Assembly: GCF_002285285.1 (NCBI RefSeq)
Contig: NZ_NSJF01000009.1
Span: 1-64,000 of the forward strand
Origin: Vandammella animalimorsus
GTDB lineage: Bacteria; Pseudomonadota; Gammaproteobacteria; Burkholderiales; Burkholderiaceae_C
Length of the DNA: 64,000 nt
Reading direction: 5' to 3'
Shown piece after piece: positions 23,995 to 32,132 of the stretch. How positions within the stretch are numbered: position 1 is the stretch's first letter; each line of letters opens with the position of its first letter. Position numbers and translations under genes: made by a program. Below the pieces are notes generated by a model, which was not told the origin of the DNA, searched no databases, and was given only the letters and a program-made list of their open reading frames with translations.

Positions 23995-24224
23995 GGGATG
24001 AAAAACTCCTTCTCGTCAAGGCCGGTGCAAAGACTTCAGAGCCTATGCGCACCATGTAAAGCAGAGGTCAAGACCAGAAAAACGCCTGCAAACTCTGCAA
24101 ACCCCTGGCAGGCCAAAGCACTCCCCCAGGGCTTTTCAAGACAACCTCCAACGTTGCCAAAGCCTTTTTCGTTGACCTTGGGACAAACAGTGCAGTGCGC
24201 GCGCGCAGTTCCATAATCGCAGGC

Positions 24225-26123
24225 ATGGCTTTGATCACACTTTTAAACATGCAACTGGCCTTTGGCGATGTGGCGCTGCTGGACGGGGCGGATTTCTCCG
24301 TCGAAGAAAAAGAGCGCATTGCCTTCATCGGCCGCAATGGCGCGGGCAAGTCCTCGCTGCTGAAAATCATGGCTGGGCTGGCCCAAGCCGATGAGGGCAC
24401 GATCCACCGGCAGACTGGCCTGCGCACCGCCTATGTGCCGCAGGAGCCGCAGTTCGACGCGCAGCACAGCATCTTCGAAGCTGTCTCGGCCGGGCTGCAG
24501 CCGGTGATTGCGCTGCGTGAGCAATATCTGCGGCATGAGCCGGGCGTAGACCTGGATGCGCTGCAATCGCAGATCGAGGCGCAGGGCGGCTGGACCTGGG
24601 AGCAGCGCGTGGCCGAAACGCTGCAGCGCCTGCACCTGCAGCCCGAGGCGCTGGTGGGCAGCCTCTCGGGCGGCAACAAAAAACGCGTGGCCCTGGCCCA
24701 GGCCCTGGTGCAGCAACCGGATTTGCTGCTGCTGGACGAGCCCACCAACCATCTGGATCTGGATTCCATCGCCTGGCTGGAGGATTTGCTGCTGGATTTC
24801 AAGGGCAGCATCGTCGTCATCACCCACGACCGGGCCTTTCTGGACCGCATCGCCACGCGCGTGGTCGAGCTCGACCGTGGCCAGCTGCGCTCCTACCCGG
24901 GCAATTACAGCCAGTACCGCGCCCTGAAGGACGAGCAACTGGCGCAAGAGGCCGTAGAGCATGCCAAGGCCGACAAGCTGCTGGCGCAGGAGGAAATCTG
25001 GATCCGCAAGGGCGTGGAGGCGCGGCGCACGCGCAGCGTCAGCCGCATTGCGCGGCTGCAGGCCCTGCGCCAGCAGCGCGCCGAGCGCCGCAACGCACTG
25101 GGCACGGTGCGCATGGAGATCGCCCGCGGCGAGGCCAGCGGCAAGATCGTTGCCGAGCTCAGCGGCGTCAGCAAGCAATTTGGCGCGCAGCCCTTGATCC
25201 GCGACTTTTCCACCACCGTGCTGCGCGGCGACAAGATTGGCCTGCTGGGCCCCAATGGCGCGGGCAAATCCACGCTGCTGAAAATCATCCTCGGCCAGCT
25301 GCAGCCCGACAGCGGCAAGGTGCGCCTGGGCACGAACCTGCGCATCGCCTATTTCGACCAGATGCGCGAGGCCATCGACCCCGAGGCCACGCTGGAGGAC
25401 TTCATCAGCCCAGGCAGCGAATGGATCGAGATCGGCCAGCAGCGCAAGCACGTCAAAAGCTATCTGGGCGATTTCCTGTTCTCTCCGCAGCGCGCGCACT
25501 CGCCGGTCAAATCCCTCTCGGGCGGCGAGCGCAACCGGCTGCTGCTGGCGCGACTGTTTGCCACGCCAGCGAATGTGTTGGTGCTTGACGAGCCCACCAA
25601 CGACCTGGACATGGAAACTCTGGAGCTGCTGGAAGAGCTGCTGCAGACCTACGACGGCACGGTGCTGCTGGTCAGCCACGACCGCAGCTTTGTGGACAAC
25701 GTGGTCACGCACACCATTGCTGCTGAAGGACAGGGACTGTGGCGCGAGTACGAGGGCAGCGTGCAGGACTGGCTGCTGCAATCGCAGCGCAGCCGCGCCC
25801 TGGCCGCGCAGCGCCAGGCCGGCCAGCAAGCGCCTGCTGCCGAAGAACCGGCCACGCCGCCAGTTTCGGCCCCCACGCCAACACCCAACGCCGCGCCAGC
25901 AGGCAAGCGCAAACTCAGCTACAAGGAGCAGCGCGAGCTCGAGGCCTTGCCCGGGCGCATTGATGCGCTGGAGGCCGAGCAGGCCCAAATCCAGGCCGAA
26001 CTGGCCGATGGCAGCCTGTACGCCAGCGACCACCAGCGCGCAGCAGCATTGTCCGAACGCAGTGTGGCCATCGAGGAGGAGCTGATGCAGGCGTTGGAAC
26101 GCTGGGAGGCCTTGTCAGGCTGA
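24225..26123 (+). CDS. uup: ABC-F ATPase Uup
   Basis: A 632-residue cytoplasmic protein with two ABC domains: Walker A GRNGAGKSS (36-44) with signature LSGGNKKR, and GPNGAGKST (about 342-350) with LSGGERNR. An interdomain linker with Arg-rich RTRSVSRIARLQ lies between them, and there is a C-terminal coiled coil (about 560-632) after an Ala/Pro linker; that C-terminal domain is the mark of Uup, which binds branched DNA and ribosomes. No membrane domain. The ATG at 24225 gives the family start MALITLLN. It ends at a perfect terminator at 26197. Confidence 0.92.
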   Translation: MALITLLNMQLAFGDVALLDGADFSVEEKERIAFIGRNGAGKSSLLKIMAGLAQADEGTIHRQTGLRTAYVPQEPQFDAQHSIFEAVSAGLQPVIALREQYLRHEPGVDLDALQSQIEAQGGWTWEQRVAETLQRLHLQPEALVGSLSGGNKKRVALAQALVQQPDLLLLDEPTNHLDLDSIAWLEDLLLDFKGSIVVITHDRAFLDRIATRVVELDRGQLRSYPGNYSQYRALKDEQLAQEAVEHAKADKLLAQEEIWIRKGVEARRTRSVSRIARLQALRQQRAERRNALGTVRMEIARGEASGKIVAELSGVSKQFGAQPLIRDFSTTVLRGDKIGLLGPNGAGKSTLLKIILGQLQPDSGKVRLGTNLRIAYFDQMREAIDPEATLEDFISPGSEWIEIGQQRKHVKSYLGDFLFSPQRAHSPVKSLSGGERNRLLLARLFATPANVLVLDEPTNDLDMETLELLEELLQTYDGTVLLVSHDRSFVDNVVTHTIAAEGQGLWREYEGSVQDWLLQSQRSRALAAQRQAGQQAPAAEEPATPPVSAPTPTPNAAPAGKRKLSYKEQRELEALPGRIDALEAEQAQIQAELADGSLYASDHQRAAALSERSVAIEEELMQALERWEALSG

Positions 26124-26196
26124 TGGCCTTGTTCTGAAGGCCTACCCAGCCCCTCATCCGCAGGCACGCACTGCAACCGTTTGCACCACTTGCGCT

Positions 26197-26228
26197 GGCC
26201 GCATCCATCAGGATGCGGCCATTTTTTT
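26197..26228 (+). terminator. Intrinsic terminator after uup
   Basis: GGCCGCATCC (26197-26206) and GGATGCGGCC (26211-26220) form a perfect 10-bp stem with a 4-nt loop followed by ATTTTTTT. It insulates the region upstream of mnmG. Confidence 0.95.
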
Positions 26229-26374
26229 ACCCTCGTATCTGTGGCCAAAAAAGCCCTGCAAGCCCATTTCATGGCGCATCAGTCCACAGGCCAGGTGGGG
26301 CAAAAATCTTTCCATTGCAACACATGCCGGTTCCAATTTTCGGATTTGCTGCGCGATCTCTCACTACCATCACT

Positions 26375-26626
26375 GCAAAACTTTTTTTAAAAAAGTAGTC
26401 GTAGTAGTAGATTGCTGTCAGGCTTGTGGATAACTGCCTTGGTGCGTGAAAAAACAAACACTTGCGGGGCAAAAAAGCCTGTGAGCGACTGCCGCGCAGC
26501 TTGGGCTGCAATTGGGGATAAAAACAGCACTTGCCAGCGCCGGAGCAGTTGTGCGCATTCCATCCCCTGCCAACCCAAAGGCTTGTGCACAACTTGTCCA
26601 GTGCGCGCTTTGTTTCACGTGGAACA
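26375..26626. other. Origin-like region (DnaA boxes, DnaA-trio-like repeats, AT-rich tract)
   Basis: On the minus strand a perfect DnaA box TTATCCACA (26433-26425) is followed after 14 nt by CTA repeats (26410-26396, four CTA triplets and one CGA), then by an AT-rich tract (26394-26378). This box, trio, AT-rich order is the layout of the Bacillus basal unwinding system. A one-mismatch box lies at 26513-26521, and the palindrome TTGTGCACAA (26583-26592) contains one-mismatch boxes on both strands. It is within the 602-bp non-coding stretch 26124-26725, next to mnmG and parAB. No dnaA is in the window. Origin function is inferred. Confidence 0.6.
26611..26626. promoter_or_regulatory. parS centromere site 1
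   Basis: TGTTTCACGTGGAACA, one half-site base away from the perfect palindrome, fits the conserved chromosomal parS sequence bound by ParB. It lies 100 bp upstream of mnmG, 4.6 kb from parB. Confidence 0.9.
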
Positions 26627-26725
26627 GCCCCTTGATGACTGGCGCAGGGCTTGATGGCAGGTTCTAAAAATGACAGGCCGGTAAAATCGCGCCTTTTCAA
26701 TCGGCCCCGCCGAATGGACATTGCC

Positions 26726-28729
26726 ATGTCTGATTCAAGCAATCACTACACCTACCCACAGGAATTTGATGTCATCGTCGTTGGTGGCGGCCATGCTGGC
26801 ACCGAGGCAGCGTTGGCCGCTGCGCGCATGGGTTGCAAAACCTTGCTGCTGACGCACAACATCGAAACCCTGGGGCAAATGAGCTGCAACCCATCAATCG
26901 GCGGCATTGGCAAGGGGCATCTGGTCAAGGAGGTCGATGCCCTGGGCGGCGCCATGGCGCTGGCCGCTGATTTGGGCGGCATCCAGTTTCGTACGCTCAA
27001 CAGCAGCAAGGGTCCAGCGGTGCGCGCCACGCGCGCCCAGGCCGATCGTGTGTTGTACAAGGCGGCCATCCGCCACATGCTGGAGAACCAGGCCAATCTG
27101 TGGCTGTTCCAGCAGGCGGTGGACGATTTGCTCATCGAAGGCGACCGCGTGGCCGGTGCAATCACCCAGCTGGGATTGCGTTTTCGTGCCCGAGCCGTGG
27201 TACTGACGGCAGGGACTTTTCTCGATGGCCGCATCCATGTGGGCCTGAGCAACTACCAGGCTGGCAGGGCAGGGGATCCGCCAGCGGTGACCTTGTCGGC
27301 GCGTCTGAAGGAATTGCAGCTGCCCCAGGGACGACTCAAGACCGGTACGCCGCCACGGCTGGATGGGCGCAGCATTGATTTTTCCCGATGCACCGAGCAG
27401 CCTGGCGACGGCGTTCCCGGCGGCGACCGGCCCGATCACATGCCGGTGTTCAGCTTCATGGGCAGCCGTGCCATGCACCCGCGGCAGATTTCCTGCTGGA
27501 TCACGCACACCAATGCGCGTACGCACGACATCATCCGCAGCGGTTTTGATCGCAGCCCGATGTTCACCGGCCGGATCGAGGGTGTGGGGCCACGTTACTG
27601 CCCCAGTGTTGAGGACAAGATCAACCGCTTTGCCGACAAGGACAGCCACCAGATCTTCCTGGAGCCCGAAGGCCTGGAAACGCACGAGATCTACCCCAAT
27701 GGCATCTCCACCAGCCTGCCATTCGATGTGCAGTATGCGTTGGTGCGATCCATGCCGGGGCTGGAAAATGCCCATATTCTGCGACCTGGCTACGCCATCG
27801 AGTACGACTATTTCGACCCGCGCGCCCTCAAGAGCAGCTTCGAGACGCGGCAAATCCAGGGCCTGTTCTTTGCCGGCCAGATCAACGGCACGACCGGCTA
27901 CGAGGAGGCCGCCGCCCAAGGCCTGTTTGCCGGCCTGAACGCTGCGCTGCAATGCCGTGGCGAGGGCCCCTGGCTGCCGCGGCGCGATGAAGCCTATCTG
28001 GGCGTGCTGGTCGATGATTTGATTACCAAGGGCGTGACTGAGCCTTATCGCATGTTCACCAGCCGGGCCGAATACCGTCTGCAGCTGCGCGAGGACAATG
28101 CCGACATGCGCCTGACCGAAGCAGGGCGGCGTTTGGGCTTGGTGGACGATGCGCGTTGGGATGCCTTTTGCCGTAAACGCGACGCCATCGAGGCCGAATC
28201 GGCACGCCTGAAGGCCACTTGGGTCACGCCGCGCAATCTGCCGCAGTCGGAATCCGAGCGCGTGCTGGGCAAGGCCATCGAGCGCGAGTACAACCTGTTC
28301 GATTTATTGCGCCGCCCAGGCATTGGCTATGAGGCGTTGATGGGCCTGAAGCCCGAGCCTCAGGCCAGCAGCCTGGCGATTGGAAATGAGGCTGTTTCAC
28401 GTGAAACACTGGGCGAACTCTATGCCCCAGTGGTCGAGCAGATCGAGATTGCCGCCAAATACAGCGGCTACATCGACCGTCAAAAGGACGAGGTCGAGCG
28501 AGCCTCGCATTTTGAGAATCTGCTGTTGCCAGACGATCTGGACTACGCCGAGGTCACGGCCTTGTCGTTCGAGGTGCGACAAAAACTGGCGCAGCATCGC
28601 CCCCGTACGCTGGGCCAGGCCTCGCGCATTTCGGGCGTTACGCCGGCAGCTGTGTCGCTGCTGCTGATCCACCTGAAAAAGATGGGCAAGAAATGGTCGC
28701 CAGGGCTTGCGGATGAGGTGACGCAATGA
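26726..28729 (+). CDS. mnmG: tRNA uridine-5-carboxymethylaminomethyl modification enzyme, FAD subunit
   Basis: A 667-residue MnmG (GidA) that with MnmE modifies U34 of certain tRNAs. The FAD-binding motif [12 protein letters not shown] is near residues 18-29; conserved cysteines lie in MSCNPSIGG and SRCTEQPGD, and the family stretch [16 protein letters not shown] is near 390. The C-terminal domain binds MnmE. The start is taken at ATG 26726; an in-frame ATG at 26714 is an alternative. A parS site is encoded within the gene at 28393. Its stop overlaps the rsmG start (ATGA). Confidence 0.96.
28393..28408. promoter_or_regulatory. parS centromere site 2, inside mnmG
   Basis: TGTTTCACGTGAAACA is a perfect 16-bp palindrome in the mnmG coding sequence, read there as part of AVSRETLG. 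It is the strongest of the three sites. Confidence 0.93.
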
Positions 28730-29421
28730 GTGTTGAGCAGCTGCAGCGCAGCCTGCAGGCTGGCGCCGATGCGCTGGGGGTGCTGCTTGATGCGCAGCAG
28801 CAGCGCCAAATGCTGCAATACCTGCAGCTGCTGCAGAAGTGGAACCAGGTCTATAACCTCACGGCGGTGCGCAACCCGCAGGAGATGCTGCATCTGCACC
28901 TGCTCGATTGCCTGGCGGCGGTGCCGGGTTTTCTGCGGGCGCTGTATGAACAGCAAGCCCAGGCTCAAAAGCAGCCTGGTGCTGCGGCAATGCCGTTGCC
29001 CGTGCTGGATGTGGGGGCGGGCGGCGGCTTGCCGGGCGTGGTGCTGGCCATTTGTTGCCCGCAGGCACAGGTGCAATGCGTCGATGCCGTGGCCAAGAAA
29101 ATGGCCTTTGTGCAGCAGGTGGCCGGGGCGCTGGGGTTGCCCAACCTCAAGGCTAGGCACGCTCGAGTGGAGGCGCTGCCCGGGCAGTATTCAATCATTG
29201 CCTCCAGGGCCTTTGCCAGCCTGTCGGATTTTGTTGCGCTGACGCGCGAGCGCCTGGCGCCCGCTGGCGTATGGATGGCCATGAAAGGCAAGTATCCGCA
29301 AGAGGAAATTGACGCCTTGCCGCAGGGTGTGCAGGTGTTTCACGTGGAACAGTTGCAGGTGCCAGGCGTGGCAGCCGAACGCTGCATCGTCTGGATGCGC
29401 CAGAGCGACGAGGTGGTTTGA
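28726..29421 (+). CDS. rsmG: 16S rRNA (guanine527-N7)-methyltransferase
   Basis: A 231-residue RsmG (GidB), an S-adenosylmethionine-dependent enzyme that methylates G527 of 16S rRNA. The SAM-binding motif [13 protein letters not shown] is at about 93-105, preceded by [12 protein letters not shown] and HLLDCLA, and followed by [10 protein letters not shown]. The ATG overlaps the mnmG stop by 4 nt, so translation is coupled. A parS site lies in its 3' part. The stop TGA is followed by GAGCTTGTT, weakly like the end of the hairpin repeats. Confidence 0.95.
29336..29351. promoter_or_regulatory. parS centromere site 3, inside rsmG
   Basis: TGTTTCACGTGGAACA, identical to site 1, lies in the rsmG coding sequence (read as part of VFHVEQ), 195 bp ahead of parA. 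Confidence 0.9.
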
Positions 29422-29546: not shown

Positions 29547-30476
29547 ATGGCGCAAATCTACTGTGTGGCAAACCAAAAGGGCGGGGTGGGCAAGACGACC
29601 ACCAGCGTGAACCTGGCGGCGGCGCTGGCCCGGATCGGGCAGCGCGTGCTGCTGGTCGATCTGGATCCGCAGGGCAATGCCACCATGGGTTGCGGTGTGG
29701 ATAAACGCGCGTTGCAGCATTCGGTGTACGACGTGCTGCTGGGCCAGTGCCTGGCAGTGCAGGCCTTGGTCAGCTCGCCGGCGGCCGATTTTCAGGTGCT
29801 GGGCGCCAACCGAGAGCTCGCTGGCGCCGAGATCGAGATGGTTGACCTGCCGCGGCGCGAACACCGCCTGCGCGATGCACTGGCCGACTTACAGGATCAG
29901 TTCGATTTCATCCTGATGGACTGCCCGCCTTCGCTGGGCCTGCTCACCCTCAACGGTCTGTGTGCGGCGCATGGCGTGATCGTGCCCATGCTGTGCGAGT
30001 ACTACGCGCTCGAAGGCCTGACGGACTTGGTCAACACCATCAAGCAGGTGCATGCCAACTTCAATCGTGAGCTGAAAATCATCGGTATTTTGCGCGTCAT
30101 GTTCGATGCTCGCGTCACGCTGCAGCAGCAGGTTAGCGAGGAGCTCAAACAGCATTTTGGTGGCAAGGTGTTCGACACCATCATTCCGCGCAACGTGCGC
30201 CTGGCCGAGGCGCCCAGCCATGGCTTGCCTGGCGTGGTCTATGACCCCAGCGCCAAGGGCAGCAAAGCCTTTGTGCAGTTCGCGCAGGAGCTCAGTCAGC
30301 GCCGCTCTGGCCAACAGCGCGCCCCAACTGCTGTGCCCCAGACCCAGCCTGCTCAGGAGCAGGGCGATGCACCAAGCCAAGCTGCGGACGAGGAGCAAAA
30401 GCCTGCACCAGCGCCTGCCAGTTCGCCAGGCGGTGGTGTGCCACTGGGGCTGCGCAAGCCCTCGGCCTCATCATGA
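29547..30476 (+). CDS. parA: Chromosome partitioning ATPase ParA
   Basis: A 309-residue ParA/Soj ATPase acting with ParB on parS in origin segregation. The deviant Walker A KGGVGKTT is at 11-18 with the signature Lys11; Walker B-like DFILMDCPPSLG is near 118-129. After about residue 255 a low-complexity Gln/Pro/Ala tail of about 50 residues extends beyond the usual 255-260-residue length, ending in GLRKPSASS. The ATG at 29547 is the family start. The stop overlaps the next gene by ATGA. Confidence 0.96.
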   Translation: MAQIYCVANQKGGVGKTTTSVNLAAALARIGQRVLLVDLDPQGNATMGCGVDKRALQHSVYDVLLGQCLAVQALVSSPAADFQVLGANRELAGAEIEMVDLPRREHRLRDALADLQDQFDFILMDCPPSLGLLTLNGLCAAHGVIVPMLCEYYALEGLTDLVNTIKQVHANFNRELKIIGILRVMFDARVTLQQQVSEELKQHFGGKVFDTIIPRNVRLAEAPSHGLPGVVYDPSAKGSKAFVQFAQELSQRRSGQQRAPTAVPQTQPAQEQGDAPSQAADEEQKPAPAPASSPGGGVPLGLRKPSASS

Positions 30477-31066: not shown

Positions 31067-31184
31067 CCCACAGATTGAAGTTGGCCGCGCTGGGGCGCTG
31101 CCACTGCCTTCAACAAGCGCCCGGGGCCTGGCCCCAACGCCTGGCCGCAAATGGATTTCAGCGATTTTTCGAGGAGTGCACACA

Positions 31185-32132
31185 ATGACAAGCAAGAAAG
31201 CAACCAAGGGGCTGGGCCGCGGCCTGGGCGCCTTGCTGGGCCCGCAGGTCAGCGATCTGGGGGGCGATGAATCGGCCTTTGCCCAGGCCCATGGCGCGCC
31301 GCGCGAGTTGGAGATCGACGCACTGGTGCCCGGCCAATACCAACCGCGCACGCACATGGACGAGGGCGCTCTCTACGAACTGGCCGAAAGCATCAAGAAG
31401 CAGGGGGTGATGCAGCCGCTGCTGGTGCGCAAGCTGCAACAGGGCGAGCATGCCGGGCGTTATGAAATCATTGCTGGCGAGCGCCGCTACCGCGCCAGCC
31501 AGCTGGCCGGGCTGACATCGGTGCCGGTGCTGGTGCGCGAGGTCGATGACCGCAGCGCCGCCGCCATGGCGCTGATCGAGAACATGCAGCGCGAGGATTT
31601 GAACCCGCTGGAAGAAGCGCGCGGCTTGCAGCGCCTGGTGCAGGAATTTGGCTTGACGCACGAGCAGGCCGCCCAGGCCGTGGGCCGCTCGCGCAGCGCC
31701 GCCAGCAACCTGCTGCGCCTGCTGAACCTGGCCGAGGCGGTGCAAACCCTGTTGATGGCCGGCGACATCGAAATGGGCCATGCGCGCGCTCTGCTGGCGT
31801 TGGGCAAGGCCGAACAAATCACTGCGGGGCATGAGATCGTGGCGCGCAAACTCAGCGTGCGCGAGACCGAGGCCCTGGTCAAGCGCCTGGCCCAGGGCAA
31901 GGGCGCTGAAGCGGCCAGGAAAGCCAGCAACCGCAAGAGCGGCGACGTGCGCCGGGTGGAGGAAATCCTCTCCGACCTGCTGATGGCGCAGGTGGACATC
32001 CAGATCAAGAAGCGCACCAAGAAGAAAGACGGCCAGATCCAGGAGTCGGGCGAAATCCGCATCCCGTTTGCCTCTATCGAGGTGCTCAACGGCGTGCTCG
32101 AACGCATCCAGGGCCGCCAGGAGGAATTCTGA
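31185..32132 (+). CDS. parB: Chromosome partitioning protein ParB
   Basis: A 315-residue ParB/Spo0J CTPase and parS-binding protein. The N-terminus has KKATKGLGRGLGALLG (ParA-interacting). The ParB CTPase domain includes PGQYQPRTHMDEG, the GERRYRAS box (about 92-99) and ENMQREDLNPLEEA; the helix-turn-helix is LTHEQAAQAVGRSRSAASNLLRLL (about 158-181), and a C-terminal dimerisation domain follows. GAGGAG lies 8 bp before the ATG at 31185. The ribD ATG follows its stop directly. Confidence 0.96.
   Translation: MTSKKATKGLGRGLGALLGPQVSDLGGDESAFAQAHGAPRELEIDALVPGQYQPRTHMDEGALYELAESIKKQGVMQPLLVRKLQQGEHAGRYEIIAGERRYRASQLAGLTSVPVLVREVDDRSAAAMALIENMQREDLNPLEEARGLQRLVQEFGLTHEQAAQAVGRSRSAASNLLRLLNLAEAVQTLLMAGDIEMGHARALLALGKAEQITAGHEIVARKLSVRETEALVKRLAQGKGAEAARKASNRKSGDVRRVEEILSDLLMAQVDIQIKKRTKKKDGQIQESGEIRIPFASIEVLNGVLERIQGRQEEF

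Follow-up and report, generated by a model that had tools for sequence, protein, structure and literature searches.

Where chromosome replication starts in Vandammella animalimorsus is a question raised by a 602-bp intergenic region (26124–26725) between a uup-like gene and mnmG (gidA), which the initial annotation had read either as the origin or as an additional DnaA-binding locus. To address this question, we analyzed the window, a stretch of 64,000 nucleotides that opens contig C13 (81,948 bases), together with the genome to which it belongs (13 unordered contigs, 3,081,705 bases). On sequence evidence, we consider with high confidence that the 602 bp upstream of mnmG are the chromosomal replication origin (oriC) of this species. 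On the minus strand, read 5' to 3', a perfect DnaA box, TTATCCACA (26433–26425), is followed by a 14-nt spacer (26424–26411), by CTACTACTACGACTAC (26410–26395) and by TTTTTTAAAAAAA (26394–26382). CTACTACTACGACTAC is the complement of the DnaA-trio strand, which lies on the plus strand at 26395–26410 and reads 3'-GAT GAT GAT GCT GAT-5' from the box. The adjoining AT tract, TTTTTTTAAAAAA on the plus strand (26382–26394), is likely the first DNA to melt, and the 50-bp segment from 26376 is 68% AT compared with 34.8% for the whole window. The search rule published for the basal unwinding system (BUS), as given in the part of the source available (PMC8287927), comprises a DnaA box with up to two mismatches, a spacer of up to 16 nt and at least three trios, mostly GAT beside the box. 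In the window, the box at 26425–26433 is perfect, the 14-nt spacer falls within 0–16 nt, and the run of at least three consecutive 3'-NAN-5' trios is provided by GAT GAT GAT, then GCT and GAT. The succession of box, 14-nt spacer, CTA repeats and AT tract on one strand, as initially described, was thus borne out, the strand being the minus strand. The box-N14-CTACTACTA combination occurs once in the window even when three mismatches are allowed (0/100 dinucleotide shuffles), and CTACTACTA has no second occurrence anywhere in the window.

To find out whether the module is unique, the genome was searched with the BUS pattern TTRTCCACA-N14-YTAYTACTA, with the reversed motif as control. At up to one mismatch the pattern had a single genome match and the control none; at up to two mismatches there was still a single match, and one for the reversed control. 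Perfect DnaA boxes alone numbered 12 in the genome against 9 for the reversed motif, so that lone perfect boxes are little informative. The intergenic region as a whole is 46.8% AT compared with 34.8% for the window, and it holds two DnaA boxes at up to one mismatch, a number reached in 3 of 1000 shuffles, and six matches at up to two mismatches, two of which are both strands of one near-palindrome (0/1000 shuffles reach six). A DnaA box cluster, as used to recognize an oriC, is therefore present, and is modest beside those of other copies in the genus. The second box, TTATCCCCA (26513–26521, minus strand), carries one mismatch and lies at −88 from the BUS box. The third, TTGTGCACA(A) (26583–26592, plus strand), is a weak near-palindromic box with two mismatches. 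Both had been called near-perfect, an overstatement for the box at 26583, although this box occupies the position, −158, at which relatives carry an inverse box.

The genes around the region were compared with NCBIfam models. The uup-like gene (24195–26123, plus strand), which encodes an ABC-F ATPase and forms the left border, had NF050005 as its best model, with a score of 748 bits, below the cut-off of 900. On the other side, mnmG (26726–28729; TIGR00136, 876 bits), rsmG (gidB; 28726–29421; TIGR00138, 148 bits), a parA-like partition ATPase gene (29547–30476) and parB (31176–32132; TIGR00180, 198 bits, above cut-off) all lie on the plus strand. Judged by the nearest named relatives of its MnmG, the bacterium is Comamonadaceae-like. 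The mnmG-rsmG-parAB arrangement with parS proposed earlier was confirmed for mnmG, rsmG and parB, which passed the NCBIfam cut-offs, and for parS, but not for parA: the parA-like gene, near parB, reached only 100 bits with its best NCBIfam model, NF041546, against a cut-off of 180. A further perfect DnaA box (29696–29704) was seen inside this gene. At up to two mismatches the parS consensus had exactly three matches in the genome and the control none. One lies in the origin region (26611–26626, one mismatch), one, perfect, within mnmG (28393–28408) and one within rsmG (29336–29351), so that all three genome parS matches fall within 3 kb, next to parB and the sub-cut-off parA-like gene, as expected of origin-proximal parS and parAB.

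We next compared the site with its closest relative in this comparison, G007, in which mnmG is 91% and the origin region 89% identical at the DNA level. Only 1 of 99 positions within the elements had changed, compared with 69 of 503 in the rest of the region. The single change fell in the block of trios, AT tract and mirror (1/55), whereas the BUS box (0/9), the second box (0/9), the third box (0/10) and parS (0/16) were unchanged. The spacer, which is counted with the rest of the region, kept its length while 4 of its 14 positions differed, a pattern that would be expected if its length matters and its letters do not. Among 24 other BUS copies aligned (14 from the genus and 10 from other genera), an inverse box at up to one mismatch was found at −155 to −159 relative to the BUS box in 18, including 11 of the 14 genus copies, and many of the 24 carry an extra box at about −119 or −89; the window keeps one strong and one moderate box only. 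In addition, the trios are mirrored across the AT core as an inverted repeat, at a score reached by no more than 5 of 100 single-base shuffles, in 9 of the 14 distinct genus copies, some of which are near-identical pairs from G006 and G008 and hence not independent, and in none of the 10 from other genera. Mirrored copies in congeners include L275, L277, L136, L270, L272, L279 and L281. In the window, the corresponding stretch past the AT tract (26360–26375) is weak and degenerate, and the mirror is not significant, since 29 of 100 shuffles reach its score.

The module is shared well beyond this genome. At up to one mismatch, the BUS pattern was found in 104 of 250 family genomes (140 matches, against 2 for the reversed control), and this strict form had no match in the other 146. 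At up to two mismatches, it was found in 8 of 10 genus genomes, our own included (15 matches, control 3). Box-N14-YTAYTACTA could serve as a short origin test for draft genomes of the family, although its strict form detects only 104 of the 250. Distances to mnmG were tallied for 69 genomes with 99 matches, the remaining 35 of the 104 genomes (41 of the 140 matches) being excluded because their mnmG row was not listed. Of these matches, 79 share the contig of mnmG and 20 lie on a different one. Among the 79, 78 lie within 65 kb of mnmG, 67 of them upstream within 60 kb and 11 downstream within 65 kb, and one is farther away; like the window module, 73 of the 79 run in the opposite orientation to mnmG. 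Where a dnaA row was present on the same contig, 39 of 48 matches were closer to mnmG and 9 to dnaA. A BUS directly downstream of dnaA was observed in G208:C190:16138, G090:C15:113350 and G110:C13:53485, and G088, which has no strict-pattern match, carries a looser BUS with an 18-nt spacer beside dnaA (L228:9676). Judging from these sequences, both placements of the origin, at mnmG and at dnaA, appear to occur in the family. Within 700 bp upstream of mnmG there were nearly no boxes in 80 named and 10 genus loci (own included; minus-strand genus loci not turned round). We considered this scarcity as evidence against an origin and rejected it, since the module lies farther from mnmG in most relatives; the cluster scan and the BUS pattern corrected the reading. 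Extending the view to as much as 10 kb upstream of mnmG revealed a box with a CTA/TTA run behind it at just three of the 80 named loci (L007, L037 and L041); the scan for box and CTA/TTA run gave 18 matches, of which the window and L091 represent one site.

The initial annotation had pointed out that a skew shift at this site would support an origin, and GC skew was compared in the window contig and in G004, G066, G225, G129, G165, G197 and G104. The BUS served as the point of alignment, with mnmG reading forward; for multi-copy genomes the midpoint of the copies was taken, and for G004 the stronger of its two; G088 was excluded for want of a strict-pattern match. Within 25 kb of the BUS, skew was negative on the left and positive on the right in 8 of 8 genomes, window included, whereas the same 25-kb test found a negative-to-positive change at dnaA in one of the eight, and weakly there. 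The shift was therefore present as anticipated. At 25–50 kb, skew was positive on the right in 8 of 8 and negative on the left in 6 of 7, the window's 1.4 kb beyond −25 kb not being counted in that bin. Farther to the left, it was slightly positive, the wrong sign, in 5 of 7 at 50–100 kb and in 5 of 6 at 100–200 kb, and negative in 3 of 3 at 200–400 kb; farther to the right, it was positive in 5 of 8 at 50–100 kb, in 5 of 5 at 100–200 kb and in 1 of 2 beyond. Skew was thus weak overall, and noisy and partly of the wrong sign beyond 50 kb, and single relatives were ambiguous before the stretches were aligned on the BUS. In the window, the cumulative-skew minimum falls at 23.4 kb, 3 kb from the BUS, and a low almost as deep follows at 48 kb. 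We use skew as one of several lines of evidence, since gene orientation was not corrected for.

The main alternative places the origin at dnaA and assigns the window site an accessory role in DnaA binding, as a titrator of DnaA or a regulator of mnmG. The dnaA gene, whose location the initial annotation had named as a check, was found at C7:357980–359521, apart from the mnmG contig C13. Its product covers TIGR00362 over its full length and can be aligned to DnaA chains of solved structure, among them the C-terminal domain chain 1j1v. In favor of dnaA, the rpmH-dnaA interval contains one perfect box, several single-contig relatives are numbered from dnaA, and a few relatives have a BUS directly downstream of this gene. 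However, the stretches examined to the left and right of dnaA contained no trio run, and no parS match lies near this gene. Along C7, 7 of the 8 stretches flanking dnaA on its two sides have negative skew, as do 11 of 14 stretches of G004 (C2, 200–960 kb, with dnaA at 340 kb); furthermore, 7 of 8 genomes lacked a negative-to-positive change at dnaA in the 25-kb test. In the congener G004, dnaA and mnmG lie about 643 kb apart on one contig, and therefore at most one of them can adjoin the origin. Taken together, these data make an origin at dnaA very improbable. Between rpmH and dnaA, L001:3519–3574 consists of seven tandem 8-mers, TTCCACAC, each similar to the CCACA terminus of a DnaA box; none of the nine congener dnaA loci scanned has a run of at least two copies.

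Slightly less probable still is an origin at a third locus, such as the three-box cluster at C7:393355–393390 or the box pair at C8:220660–220727, each of which combines a perfect box with neighbors at one or two mismatches. Neither has a BUS pattern at up to two mismatches or a parS match nearby, and skew is negative on both sides of the C7 cluster and of the C8 pair; after inspection of the genome's other perfect boxes, the clusters at C7:393369 and C8:220660 were considered as candidate origins and rejected for lack of a BUS, a skew switch and a parS match. Moreover, 32–65 bp of the C7 motif recur in five congeners at places lacking the flanking match, an observation more in keeping with a regulatory motif than with a unique origin. 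The C7 cluster (about 13355–13390 of L146) is intergenic and comprises three sequences similar to DnaA boxes, one of which is inverted relative to the others; it may resemble the E. coli DARS elements. A reading of the boxes and CTA repeats as fortuitous, or as no more than the mnmG promoter region, since a promoter would be expected upstream of a gene, can practically be dismissed: none of 100 shuffles reproduced the pattern, the family conserves it, and the elements hardly differ from those of G007.

What the sequences show directly is a module that is unique in the genome, conserved and located at a skew switch, together with the parS cluster. Because the module is unique in the genome and shared in the family, lies where skew switches in 8 of 8 genomes and has all parS matches adjacent, whereas dnaA is without a switch in 7 of 8, the region is far better explained as oriC than as a spare DnaA site. 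DnaA binding, melting and initiation at this site are proposed by analogy with Bacillus subtilis. DnaA would bind the double-stranded box at 26425–26433, aided by the boxes at 26513 and 26583, and would then be handed to the adjacent single-stranded trios of the plus strand (26395–26410). The DnaA filament would grow leftward into the AT tract, where the duplex would open for helicase loading. From the opened duplex, replication would proceed bidirectionally, and ParB bound to the three parS within 3 kb would separate the new origins.

Unexpectedly, 32 of the 104 BUS-bearing genomes carried at least two BUS copies on the same strand within 15 kb. Examples with several modules are G013, G104 (L233, L234), G197 (L229, L230) and G165 (L223); G013 has three copies, as does G104 if a copy with a 15-nt spacer is counted, and in multi-module genomes supporting boxes are repeated at several of the copies. 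We tentatively put forward, as a possibility rather than the expected outcome, that the family origin is a copy-variable neighborhood in which one chromosome is served by two to three modules of the same orientation near mnmG, separated by a few hundred bases to about 30 kb, that the window genome and G007 kept one, and that in the window's genus mirrored trios across the AT core could allow DnaA filaments on both strands. Genomes with two or three modules are natural material for asking if one chromosome uses several opening sites.

Compared with known systems, the region resembles E. coli oriC in lying beside gidA/mnmG and in combining DnaA boxes with AT-rich DNA. Origins of the E. coli type contain many GATC sites and AT-rich 13-mers. 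In contrast, the 602 bp contain one GATC, where 2.25 are expected from the window frequency, and the one E. coli 13-mer pattern searched for had no match on either strand; the other neighbor also differs, being mioC in E. coli and the uup-like gene in the window. The B. subtilis BUS lies beside dnaA. The window module has in common with it a box, a spacer not exceeding 16 nt, three or more 3'-GAT-5' trios and AT-rich DNA, in the same order and on the same strand. It differs in its place at mnmG and in its supporting boxes, an inverse one near −158 and another at −88. According to the available part of the report, relatives of the BUS of B. subtilis oriC are predicted in 1755 of 2070 origins (PMC8287927). 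A widely used origin finder takes dnaA as its default indicator gene, and the initial annotation had likewise described origins in Burkholderiales as normally annotated at dnaA. A position off dnaA is, however, not exceptional in this order, as the reports on Cupriavidus (PMC2864759) and Burkholderia cenocepacia (PMC4948915) point away from this gene. In Cupriavidus metallidurans CHR1, the skew switch is reported about 90 kb from dnaA, and the 213 nt before it contain three perfect DnaA boxes; the main text does not name gidA, nor do the passages available mention trios (PMC2864759), whereas the window site is linked to mnmG and has trios. On B. cenocepacia chromosome 1, the excerpted text describes an origin region with par genes, suggests that the true origin may be a second box cluster close to both nucleotide 1 and the skew minimum, and leaves the exact site uncertain (PMC4948915); gidA is BCAL0024 and dnaA BCAL0423 in part of another report (PMC7364216). 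Unlike the window genome, B. cenocepacia has three chromosomes and a plasmid. The Helicobacter pylori origin, described in the part available as two-part (PMC8235120), parallels the multi-module relatives, whereas the window genome has a single module. Among the literature matches listed, none describes, in its title or abstract opening, a BUS module at mnmG in this group. Our results would place the origin of a Burkholderiales group beside mnmG and the partition genes, away from dnaA, at a locus of an already known kind, as the available text on Cupriavidus and Burkholderia indicates.
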